DNA of 64,000 bases from Lachnospiraceae bacterium (GTDB taxonomy: Bacteria > Bacillota > Clostridia > Lachnospirales > Lachnospiraceae): contig JAFRSU010000084.1 of assembly GCA_017427415.1 (NCBI GenBank), positions 1 through 64,000 on the forward strand. The letters are read 5' to 3'. Shown here piece by piece: positions 5,840 through 62,267 of this stretch. The notes under the pieces were generated by a model. That model saw only the letters and a program-made list of their open reading frames with translations, had not been told where the DNA came from and searched no databases. Each line of letters begins with the position of its first letter. The first letter of the stretch is position 1. The position numbers were made by a program, and so were the translations under genes.

Positions 5840-6778
5840 ATGGCAAGTACGAAGGAAAAGGCAGAAATTGTTCCGGTAACGATCCAAGTAAACGATATTG
5901 GGAATCTGATTTATACCATCAGAGATAAACAAGTGATGTTGGATCATGACTTGGCGGCTTTGTATGGATATGAGGTTCGAGCATTGAATCAGCAGGTTAA
6001 GCGTAATATAGGACGGTTCCCTGATGATTTTATGTTTCAGCTAACTAAGGATGAGGTAGAAGCCGTGAAATCACAAATTGTGACTTCACCGAATTCCAAT
6101 TTTTACTCTGGGCAAGAAGGAGGTCGCAGAAAACCGCCATACGCCTTTACAGAGCAGGGAATCTATATGCTGGCAACGGTTCTAAAGGGTGAGGTGGCTG
6201 AACAACAGAGCATATTCATTATGCGTGCATTCCGTGAGATGCGCCGGTTTATAGCCAACAATGCTCTGCTCTTTGAGAAGGTAAGCCATATAGAACTGAA
6301 ACAGCTGGAATATCAGAAAAGCACGGATGAGAAGTTTGACAAAGTGTTCCAGTACATTGAGGATCATGCAGAATCGGAGCAGAAGATATTCTTCGATGGA
6401 CAGATTTATGATGCATTCAGCTTAATTACATCCATCATCCAGAAAGCCACCAACGAGATTATCCTGATTGACGGGTATGTAGATGTAGATACGCTGAACA
6501 TTTTGGCTAAGAAGAATACCGGTGTTGATGTGAAGATTTATACATATGCAAGTGCGCCGCTTACAAACAGGGATGCGGCTAATTTCAATGCACAGTATCC
6601 AACATTGACGGTAAAGAAGACGCAGGTATTCCATGACAGGTTTATCATATTGGATGGGAAGACAGCGTATCATATAGGGGCATCCATTAAGGATGCCGGG
6701 AAGAAATGCTTTGGTATTTCTCTCATAGATGATCCGGGTGTGGTGACGGATTTGCTGAACAGATTAAAGACAGTATGA
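5840..6778 (+). CDS. ORF6N-domain protein with C-terminal phospholipase-D-like segment
   Basis: A 312-residue protein. The N-terminal ORF6N-like DNA-binding domain (about residues 15-125) shows IYTIRDKQVMLDHDLAALYG, the hypervariable VKSQIVTSP and then GGRRKPPYAFTEQGIYML. A helical linker follows, then a C-terminal part with one HKD-like signature (HDRFIILDG ... GASIKDAG), as in single-motif PLD-fold proteins. ORF6N and KilA-N domains are typical of phage and mobile-element regulators. ATG 5840 is chosen because GGAAGG ends 7 bases upstream. The frame is also open back to a TTG at 5753 through two variant motifs. It may be a regulator or an antiphage or abortive factor; the function is unproven. 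Confidence 0.8.
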   Translation: MASTKEKAEIVPVTIQVNDIGNLIYTIRDKQVMLDHDLAALYGYEVRALNQQVKRNIGRFPDDFMFQLTKDEVEAVKSQIVTSPNSNFYSGQEGGRRKPPYAFTEQGIYMLATVLKGEVAEQQSIFIMRAFREMRRFIANNALLFEKVSHIELKQLEYQKSTDEKFDKVFQYIEDHAESEQKIFFDGQIYDAFSLITSIIQKATNEIILIDGYVDVDTLNILAKKNTGVDVKIYTYASAPLTNRDAANFNAQYPTLTVKKTQVFHDRFIILDGKTAYHIGASIKDAGKKCFGISLIDDPGVVTDLLNRLKTV

Positions 6779-45449: not shown

Positions 45450-45857
45450 TTATTCTTTTGTCTGTTTTTTTGCCTGCTTCTTGGTGGTATCAAGATATTT
45501 TTTCATATGCTTTTTGATGGCGGCAAAGGTTTCCTTGCTCAGGTCGTGCTCTATCTTGCAGGCATCCTTGGCAGCAAGTTCTTCGGACACTCCGAGAGAT
45601 ATCAGGCATTCGGTAAGAACCTGATGTCTGTCATATATATCTTCGGCCACTTCCTTGCCTTTTTCAGTGAAGGTTATATATCCCTGGGCATCCACATTAA
45701 TATATCCGTTGGTCTTGAGCAGTTTTATGGCACGGCTTACGCTGGGCTTTGAAAACTGCATCTCTTCACTTATGTCGATCGATCTGACTTTTGAATTCCT
45801 CTGCTGAAGTACAAGTATAGTTTCAAGATACATCTCGCCTGACTCTAATAAAATCAT
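45450..45857 (-). CDS. DtxR/MntR-family metalloregulator (first copy)
   Basis: A 135-residue winged-helix protein: the HTH VRSIDISEEMQFSKPSVSRA, then the dimerisation/metal-binding domain with RHQVLTECLISLGVSEELAA and CKIEHDLSKET, as in MntR-type regulators (no SH3 domain). A Lys-rich tail ends it. GGAGG precedes the ATG. It is divergent from feoA, and the recurring GTTA-N8-TAAC operator at the feo promoter suits a DtxR-type dimer, so it or its paralog at 57808 is the likely iron or manganese repressor. Confidence 0.9.
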   Translation of the reverse strand: MILLESGEMYLETILVLQQRNSKVRSIDISEEMQFSKPSVSRAIKLLKTNGYINVDAQGYITFTEKGKEVAEDIYDRHQVLTECLISLGVSEELAAKDACKIEHDLSKETFAAIKKHMKKYLDTTKKQAKKQTKE

Positions 45858-49967: not shown

Positions 49968-50013
49968 TTGACAGTAAGATGAAGATATGATAATGTAGTT
50001 AGCGTAAGGTAAC
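49968..50013 (+). promoter_or_regulatory. Promoter with DtxR-type operator in front of a gene-less transcript
   Basis: TTGACA (49968-49973) with a -10-like GATAAT/TAATGT at 49989-49996. The operator GTTAGCGTAAGGTAAC (49998-50013) sits over the expected start of transcription. Confidence 0.6.
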
Positions 50014-50272
50014 TACAAAACATTAAAGCGATTGTATGATCATGTTTCTTTATGAAACTCTCATCGTTAAATCCTTCAAACCTCACTGCAGTATGCCGCC
50101 AACGTACTGCTCAAGACTTCAGACATTGAGACCCAATCACTTCTTATTTAGCTTTGATGAGGTTCATACAATTGACTTATAATACTTCACCTTATTAATA
50201 CTGAAAATATCGGCTGACCCATATAAAATATTTATATCGGGTAAGGGTCAGCCGATAATTTATCAGTAATGA

Positions 50273-50288
50273 GTTAGCGTATGCTAAT
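50273..50288. promoter_or_regulatory. Further DtxR-type operator
   Basis: GTTAGCGTATGCTAAT matches GTTA-N8-TAAC at 7 of 8 fixed bases and has a perfect TTAGC/GCTAA core. It lies just before the terminator hairpin; a minus-strand promoter (TTGATT within 50284-50294) is possible. Confidence 0.5.
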
Positions 50289-50292
50289 CAAA

Positions 50293-50327
50293 AAAGTGTG
50301 CCAATTAACGACACACTTTATTTTTTT
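50293..50327. terminator. Bidirectional terminator
   Basis: AAAGTGTG (50293-50300) pairs with CACACTTT (50312-50319), followed by ATTTTTTT on the plus strand and by a TTTTTT stretch on the minus strand. It serves the plus transcript and the minus-strand zinc-transporter operon. Confidence 0.85.
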
Positions 50328-50342
50328 ATAAGCGAACGCTAT

Positions 50343-57807: not shown

Positions 57808-58212
57808 ATGAGGGATAGGGCAAAGACGATTTCAAAAGAAGATTATCTGGAAGCAATCCTGGTATGTACAAAGAAACTCGGAGCATGCAGAGTAACGGAT
57901 ATAGCCGGACATATGGGGCATTCCAAGGCCAGTGTAAGTGTAGCACTTTCCAAGCTTGAAAACGAGGGGCTTATAGTTAAGGATGACTGGAGGATACTTC
58001 TTTCAGACAAAGGAAAAACAATCGCAGAAAAAGTATTGGAACGTCATCTGTTCTTCTTAAAATGGTTCGAGCATATCGGTATCGATACAGAGACTGCAAA
58101 AGAAGATGCCTGCCTTATAGAGCACGTGATATCTGACAGCACTTTTGAGAAAATACGGCAGTATATCACAGAGAATGATGAAGTACTGTTAGGTGCATAT
58201 AACAAAAATTAG
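57808..58212 (+). CDS. DtxR/MntR-family metalloregulator (second copy)
   Basis: A 134-residue protein: the HTH CRVTDIAGHMGHSKASVSVA, the dimerisation/metal domain RHLFFLKWFEHIGIDTETAK and CLIEHVISDST. It shares its layout with the 45450 protein but not the Lys-rich tail. Two operators at its own promoter point to autoregulation. A DUF6110-like gene and a P1B-type ATPase follow on the same strand, so it may link metal sensing to that pump. Confidence 0.9.
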   Translation: MRDRAKTISKEDYLEAILVCTKKLGACRVTDIAGHMGHSKASVSVALSKLENEGLIVKDDWRILLSDKGKTIAEKVLERHLFFLKWFEHIGIDTETAKEDACLIEHVISDSTFEKIRQYITENDEVLLGAYNKN

Positions 58213-60878: not shown

Positions 60879-62267
60879 ATGAAATCATTATTTATCAAGA
60901 TGACGGCAATATTCCTTGTACTTGTCATGAGTGTAAGCTCTGCGGATTTTGCTGTATTGGAAGTCAAGGCGGATGAAGCCGTCACAACGGAAGCAAATGC
61001 AACAGGAGAGGATTTCTTAAAAGAAGTTATCGGAGAATATGTGCCTCTCTTTATAGGCGGAATTTTTAATTCTGAGTATGATCATTACTGGCATGATTAT
61101 TCGGCAGCCGTTGCCGGAGAATCTATGGCAGATATGTGCACAGTCATTCTGAAAAAAGCCATAGGTGCAACAACATACGGAGACGAAGCAGGTGAAGATT
61201 TCTTCTGCGGCTATACTGCAGATGTGGCTAAGATCGTATTCGGTGGAAACGATGGATCCAAGGTTACTTTTATAAAGAATAACGGAGAAAAGATCACCCA
61301 TGATTATGTATTTGTAAAAAATGCATCAGCAACCGGTATTGTTGAAGGACAGGAGATGGGGTATGACGGATATCTCTACAAGAGTAAGGATGATAATAAG
61401 GATGAATTCGCCTATATCTTTATGTGTCCGGATACTCCTGAAGAGACTTATCACCTTGAATTCAGATATGGAAGCAGCGAAGAAGATATTCTTAAATTAA
61501 CGGAAGGGAAATATAAGAACTGGCTTGCTGCAGGTTTCCCCGCTTCCGCGTTTGAAGACCCTAAGGAAACTCTGATCCAGCAGGTTATAGGACTTTTTGT
61601 GTATGAAAATCTCGTAGCTATGAGCGGTGAGGAAAGCAATGCCCAGAGGATCGGTATTTCAGGTACTTGGGATATGGATACTACTGCATTTAAGGATTAT
61701 CCCGGATATGAAAATGCTTCGATGTACATCGAACTTGCAGATACCGGAACCGGCAGAAGCTTTGTAGATATGACCGGAAGTGGGAACTATATGCTTGCAA
61801 GCGAGTATCCTTTTTATACTTATGGAACCAAGGACACTGCTGGCGTTGAAAAAGGTGTATATCTTGTAATAAGTGAAGATGAAGGATTAAAGACAGCAAC
61901 CTATGAGATATCCGAAAAAGACGGACAGAAGGTACTTACATTTAATTCTTCTGAGGGAGTACTCACATACTTCGGCCGCGATACTATAGCAGCCCCGAAG
62001 ATTACAAAAGCAAAGGTAAAGAGTTCAAAGAAAATCTCTTTAAAGTGGACAAAGGTTGAAAATGCTGAAGGATATGAACTTGTATATTCTTCAAAGAGCA
62101 GTTTTAAGAAAGCAAGGACCAAGACCGTAACCGGTAAGAATTCAGCTAAGACAAAGAAGCTTAAGAGCAAAACTTACTATGTAAAGGTACGTGCATTTAC
62201 TACAGACGATGCAGGAAACAAAGTATACGGTGATTTTTCTGATGTTAAGACTGTTATCGTGAAATAA
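60879..62267 (+). CDS. Secreted protein with C-terminal fibronectin type III domain
   Basis: A 462-residue protein with a signal peptide (MKSLFIKMTAIFLVLVMSVS, cleavage likely near residue 30). The body (about 40-365) is an unrecognised extracellular domain rich in Gly, Asp and Tyr. A C-terminal Fn3 domain follows (about 370-462; KSSKKISLKWTKVENAEGYE ... TYYVKVRAFTTD). No cell-wall anchor is visible. Two metal-type operators cover its promoter, so it should be made when the metal is scarce. It may bind metal, haem or a host glycan; the function is unknown. Confidence 0.8.
   Translation: MKSLFIKMTAIFLVLVMSVSSADFAVLEVKADEAVTTEANATGEDFLKEVIGEYVPLFIGGIFNSEYDHYWHDYSAAVAGESMADMCTVILKKAIGATTYGDEAGEDFFCGYTADVAKIVFGGNDGSKVTFIKNNGEKITHDYVFVKNASATGIVEGQEMGYDGYLYKSKDDNKDEFAYIFMCPDTPEETYHLEFRYGSSEEDILKLTEGKYKNWLAAGFPASAFEDPKETLIQQVIGLFVYENLVAMSGEESNAQRIGISGTWDMDTTAFKDYPGYENASMYIELADTGTGRSFVDMTGSGNYMLASEYPFYTYGTKDTAGVEKGVYLVISEDEGLKTATYEISEKDGQKVLTFNSSEGVLTYFGRDTIAAPKITKAKVKSSKKISLKWTKVENAEGYELVYSSKSSFKKARTKTVTGKNSAKTKKLKSKTYYVKVRAFTTDDAGNKVYGDFSDVKTVIVK

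Follow-up and report, generated by a model that had tools for sequence, protein, structure and literature searches.

The locus at 49968–50327 of the window (the whole 64,000-nucleotide stretch analysed here, C80:1–64000) comprises, in this order, a promoter, a DtxR-type operator, a structured RNA of ~325 nt and a terminator. The promoter, on the + strand, consists of TTGACA (49968–49973), a 15-nt spacer and a −10 element, GATAAT (49989–49994). Overlapping the expected transcription start is a conserved + strand palindrome, GTTAGCGTAAGGTAAC (49998–50013), which we read as the putative DtxR-type operator, and a second operator-like palindrome, GTTAGCGTATGCTAAT (50273–50288), falls within the transcribed region. 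The 3′ end is formed by a + strand intrinsic terminator, AAAGUGUG...CACACUUU AUUUUUUU (50293–50328), with its stem at 50293–50319, a loop of 11 nt and then a T run; our terminator scan counts this one on the − strand only. The original prediction, made from the letters of the window, had the promoter and operator at the right coordinates, and the terminator it placed at the 3′ end is this hairpin and T run.

The predicted transcript, 50003–50327 on the + strand, folds at −86.7 kcal/mol, versus −54.6 ± 4.5 for shuffled sequences (z = −7.1; 0/100 as good). Its long closing stem joins the 5′ arms of P1 (50022–50039) and of the inner stem P2 (50060–50066) to 3′ arms at 50156–50181 (P2, about 50156–50161; P1, about 50164–50181), with a side hairpin, GUUUC-UUUAU-GAAAC (50044–50058), between the two 5′ arms. 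Within the stem lie the unpaired motif AAUCCUUCAAACCUC (50070–50084), which is anti-Shine–Dalgarno-like and a candidate pairing region, the apical hairpin P3 (50088–50110) with the loop CCGCCAA at 50096–50102, and the unpaired motif GAGACC(C)A (50128–50135). A long hairpin, AUCGGCUGACCC...GGGUCAGCCGAU (50200–50267), follows on the 3′ side. Of the elements described earlier by eye, the computed fold contains the closing stem, the inner stem and the apical hairpin; it also contains this long 3′ hairpin.

To survey the distribution of the RNA, we searched the DNA of 60 related genomes, which yielded full-length homologues in four congeners (70–73% identity over promoter and RNA) and core-only homologues in three further congeners. 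A covariance model built on the 77-nt core recovered nine copies in 8 of the 24 species of the genus, at 78–94 bits, and none besides that of its own genome among 397 genomes across the family and 392 across the order. We also scanned 84,980 GTDB species, mycobacteria included, with the motif TCCTTCAAACCTCN{5,25}CCGCCAA. Eight of the 28 pattern matches were the known Lachnospiraceae contigs (78–94 bits), all from MAGs, with sheep rumen and buffalo omasum as sources where the contig titles give one; the other 20 do not lie on these contigs, score ≤24.5 bits and were set aside as chance. Plasmid and phage collections (blastn) and viral contigs (motif) gave no match. When the window was compared with 4227 Rfam families, iron sRNAs among them where Rfam covers these, only two tRNAs exceeded the gathering score, which agrees with the original view that the RNA belongs to no known class; at permissive thresholds, all weak matches at the RNA site were below the gathering score and none was credible. 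As judged from these searches, the RNA family is new, undescribed and restricted to one rumen Lachnospiraceae genus.

All copies have the long closing stem P1/P2, the apical hairpin P3 and three unpaired motifs. Each of the 15 nt of AAUCCUUCAAACCUC is invariant among the nine copies compared, and the loop CCGCCAA and the GAGACC of the third motif are likewise identical in 9/9. In P3, 96% of cells are paired and four of the nine pairs show double-sided changes (15 such cells), a result equalled by 0/500 shuffles. Because the closing-stem sequences are too divergent for reliable column alignment between the two groups of copies described below, we cross-paired the arms between all nine copies and applied a permutation test. 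Own arms averaged −26.5 kcal/mol versus −14.6 when cross-paired (permutation p = 1e-5, a value that is optimistic because related sequences share arms); the own 3′ arm was the best partner of the 5′ arm in every one of the nine rows, and divergent copies paired well only with themselves. Covariation in the long 3′ hairpin is weak (five sequences, 95.9% of cells paired, two compensatory pairs, 38/500 shuffles as good), and the side hairpin is confined to the window and G012 copies. The sense strand is + because U–A and U–G, which alternate in P3, both pair on this strand only, and because the conserved promoter points that way. Each of the eight copies whose 5′ end is intact has TTGACA and a TA-rich −10 element in corresponding positions, and each also has the DtxR-type operator; the promoter spacer is 15 nt in the window versus 16–17 nt in seven homologues, and our sigma-70 scan missed the window promoter because of this short spacer. 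The RNA is real, since eight species of one genus retain its folded shape: the gene is genuine, with compensatory change in P3 and the closing stem, bearing out the structured RNA first proposed from the window sequence.

The copies differ in form. In group A (window, G012, G007, G009 and G016), the RNA adds the long 3′ hairpin, which is absent from group B copies, and the second palindrome, GTTAGCGTATGCTAAT, found at the same place in the four group A copies with data and variable in its 4-nt spacer. Group B (G006, G019 and two copies in G022) is ~190 nt long and ends right after P1 at a strong GC-rich terminator, of which the window terminator is the counterpart. The operator at the start site is identical across the five group A copies and reads GTTAG(C/T)GTC(A/G)GCTAAC in group B. 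One G022 copy (L013; L023 about 1465; G022:C87) has no promoter and adjoins a ZIP gene cut mid-frame, and this junction with a shortened ZIP gene is probably an assembly chimera.

Wherever the neighbourhood is readable (the second G022 copy is not placeable), the RNA gene lies near metal genes. It follows the FeoB-associated gene in the window and G012, is flanked by P-type ATPase and ZinT-like genes in G007, by a DtxR gene and a ZinT-like gene in G009 and by znuB and a ZinT-like gene in G016, adjoins an ABC permease in G006 and follows a P-type ATPase in G019. Because its position varies inside the same metal island, the RNA is not a fixed leader. It is directly 5′ of the ZinT-like gene in only three of the nine copies (G007, G009 and G016), and might also serve as a leader there because it directly precedes this secreted-protein gene. 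The operator at 50273 in the window may be either a remnant of the arrangement in which the RNA precedes the ZinT-like gene or a functional roadblock. In the window, the ZinT-like gene is at 60879–62267, with tandem operators; its product is a secreted protein with an FN3 C-terminus and an N-terminal part that is ZinT-like by eye, and Pfam returned only a weak FN3 domain for it.

We searched the RNA's own genome for further operators using GTTAGCNNNNGCTAAC with up to one mismatch, which gave 26 sites versus one for the reversed control, nearly all of them at 46–108 kb of C80 and 6–28 kb of C34. The metal island delimited in this way covers ~62 kb of C80 and ~22 kb of C34 (46046–63000 of the window, on into G000:C80:64001–113020, and G000:C34:1–40000). 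Within it lie, among others, two FeoB genes, two genes of the DtxR family, flavodoxin, enolase and numerous pairs of TetR and ABC-exporter genes. The operator precedes feoAB, the ZinT-like gene and enolase. It also stands before many of the ABC exporter pairs, before a NifH-like/periplasmic-binding cluster and before one of the DtxR-family genes with its P-type ATPase operon; it is also near the second FeoB and flavodoxin, and a ZIP gene is among those where sites cluster. The scan found no operator at the znuA or znuCB/fur promoters. Both DtxR-family repressor genes are near the RNA gene (45450–45857 and 57808–58212). The metal setting envisaged originally is thus upheld, in that the operator is common to feo, flavodoxin and other metal genes, and the metal is likely to be iron because this regulon holds flavodoxin and two FeoB. 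Of 24 congeners, 19 have exact operator sites. Within the subclade of close relatives, defined by M18 protein identity, exact operators and the sRNA go together, with eight genomes having both and three (G001, G003 and G013) neither, a co-occurrence that is not fully independent because the only exact site in G022 is the sRNA's own.

We consider it reasonably probable that the locus is an independent, DtxR-repressed sRNA gene whose product acts in trans, pairs with mRNAs and probably spares iron, a reading that supports the original interpretation in part; expression, the identity of the metal, action in trans and targets are what we infer from the sequence. When metal is replete, a DtxR-family repressor bound to the operator, which overlaps the start site, would keep the RNA off. 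When metal, most likely iron, is scarce, the repressor would leave and the RNA would be produced alongside the island's Feo, flavodoxin and ABC systems. In the folded RNA, the long closing stem bears the apical hairpin and a large internal loop, and three invariant segments are presented unpaired: AAUCCUUCAAACCUC, GAGACC(C)A and the loop CCGCCAA. Two of these are C-rich, and AAUCCUUCAAACCUC resembles a split anti-Shine–Dalgarno sequence. The segments would most likely prevent the translation of mRNAs for dispensable metal proteins by pairing with their ribosome-binding regions. Hfq (PF17209) was found in none of the eight genomes with the RNA, with positive controls, and dependence on Hfq is not obvious from these genomes. 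Several Gram-positive sRNAs work without Hfq.

Several other explanations have to be weighed against this one. The near-invariant residues on both strands of the large internal loop, arranged around a covarying hairpin, have the look of a protein or ligand site, and our searches gave no significant mRNA target and no Hfq. A structured, metal-responsive RNA that binds or titrates a protein, or acts by some other non-antisense route, is nevertheless unlikely in our estimate, since two of the motifs are unpaired C-rich stretches like those of known Gram-positive sRNAs that pair with mRNAs. Another reading keeps the trans-acting sRNA and assigns it to a manganese or zinc response. DtxR-family proteins can sense manganese (MntR), and znuABC, a Fur-family gene, ZIP and a P-type ATPase are among the genes nearby; but the operator stands before feoAB and near the second FeoB and flavodoxin and at neither the znuA nor the znuCB/fur promoter, and we regard manganese or zinc as quite improbable.

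The two remaining rivals take the RNA as a cis leader or as the mRNA of a peptide. The RNA of G007, G009 and G016 has an operator and a weak hairpin at its end, immediately 5′ of the ribosome-binding site of the ZinT-like gene, as a cis leader or attenuator of that gene would, and the window copy could have been displaced from it. By contrast, the window, G006, G019 and G022 copies have their own terminator and other neighbours, and in the window there is no + strand gene for 2.2 kb downstream, so that a leader function alone seems very unlikely. The peptide offered as an alternative in the original prediction gains almost no credence: the window does contain an open frame of 46/48 codons starting with ATG (50036–50182), but the homologues lack this frame or have it interrupted, and where a few of them do have an ORF, its length and frame differ. 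The window frame is a chance ORF. A speculative combination, which we would not expect to hold, gives the RNA a dual role, as the 5′ leader of a secreted metal-binding protein gene in some congeners, where operators would stand at both of its ends, and elsewhere as a free trans-acting regulator that would pair through a bipartite anti-Shine–Dalgarno sequence (CCUUC...ACCUC) without Hfq.

For the trans-acting sRNA that we favour, we searched for targets in two ways. The complement of AAUCCUUCAAACCUC occurs once elsewhere in the RNA's own genome (G000), as a perfect match of 16 nt upstream of an M18 aminopeptidase gene, and complements of 16–17 nt are also upstream of M18 in G019 and G003. The match sits in a degenerate, truncated Clostridiales-1 RNA (27 bits, below the cut-off), and a shortened version of that RNA is found ahead of the M18 gene in all three genomes. 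We did not accept this target, given its place inside that degenerate RNA and a TATAAT downstream, which means that the promoter may follow the match; moreover, G003 has the match with no sRNA or exact operator found in its genome (71% complete). Clostridiales-1 RNAs (RF01699) also occur upstream of unrelated genes in the genus (L069:1496–1565, L119, L120, L121 and L133).

The second search used the Shine–Dalgarno pattern TTTGAAGGN{3,10}ATG and found one true start in the own genome, UGAGGUAUUUGAAGGAGAAAAAAAUG, of a gene for an NfnA-like Fe–S flavoprotein reductase (partial sequence; best NCBIfam match NF004862). The predicted pairing consists of 6 bp and 8 bp separated by a 2-nt bulge, at −18.4 kcal/mol, and covers the Shine–Dalgarno sequence. 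Matches as good are expected ~0.75 times per 3000 starts by chance, and this one was not found in the subsets of matches from G006, G007 and G012; on both counts the target was not accepted. The nfnA-like mRNA is a candidate that would make functional sense; neither it nor the M18 match is secure in statistical or phylogenetic terms.

To our knowledge, it is mainly in mycobacteria that an iron-sparing sRNA is known to be under the control of a DtxR-family protein. There, the sRNA MrsI has a site for IdeR, a DtxR-family protein, near its start, and it resembles the present RNA in being a structured sRNA with a repressor site near the start, an intrinsic terminator and an iron-sparing role, described for MrsI and predicted here (PMC11188477). 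MrsI differs in its length (~100 nt) and in having identified targets, bfrA and fprA; we saw no sequence or structure kinship, as judged from the family and order genome searches and the 84,980-species motif scan. The staphylococcal IsrR works through unpaired C-rich regions, and it is likewise metal-repressed, not tied to Hfq and genus-restricted (PMC9410917). IsrR is, however, controlled by Fur and has three hairpins with primary-sequence conservation, and no homology was found. Control of the present RNA thus looks closest to that of MrsI, and its anatomy closest to that of IsrR.

FsrA of Bacillus has a C-rich motif aimed at the Shine–Dalgarno sequence (PMC9410917), as is predicted for the present RNA, but it is Fur-controlled and uses FbpABC chaperones, and the present RNA has no Rfam match. 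In its proposed logic the present RNA agrees with MrsI, IsrR and FsrA alike, with no relationship in sequence. The genetic logic proposed, an sRNA made once a metal repressor leaves its operator, is that of RyhB and PrrF, which in contrast belong to Fur and Hfq systems, whereas the present genomes gave no Hfq match and the RNA none in Rfam. The Clostridiales-1 RNA (RF01699) occurs in the same genus and includes GAGGUGUUUGNAGGAUUGC, a partial complement of the invariant motif, yet it is a separate, dispersed RNA, and the sRNA does not match RF01699. Lachnospiraceae are common in rumen and gut, and a new RNA family with strong covariation offers a route to study iron rationing in its Hfq-less members. 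Our literature search found no paper combining Lachnospiraceae, DtxR, iron and small RNA.

Two further features of the metal island lie outside the window. The full enolase gene (C80:88303–89601; L137:4303–5601) is directly behind a strong tandem DtxR-type operator, at 88169 and 88192. On C34, NifH-like and nitrogenase-component-1-like proteins adjoin a periplasmic-binding-protein/ABC uptake system (L139:6315–12663), with a perfect operator at 6109 ahead of the NifH-like cluster, which may be a nitrogenase-like uptake or reduction cluster.
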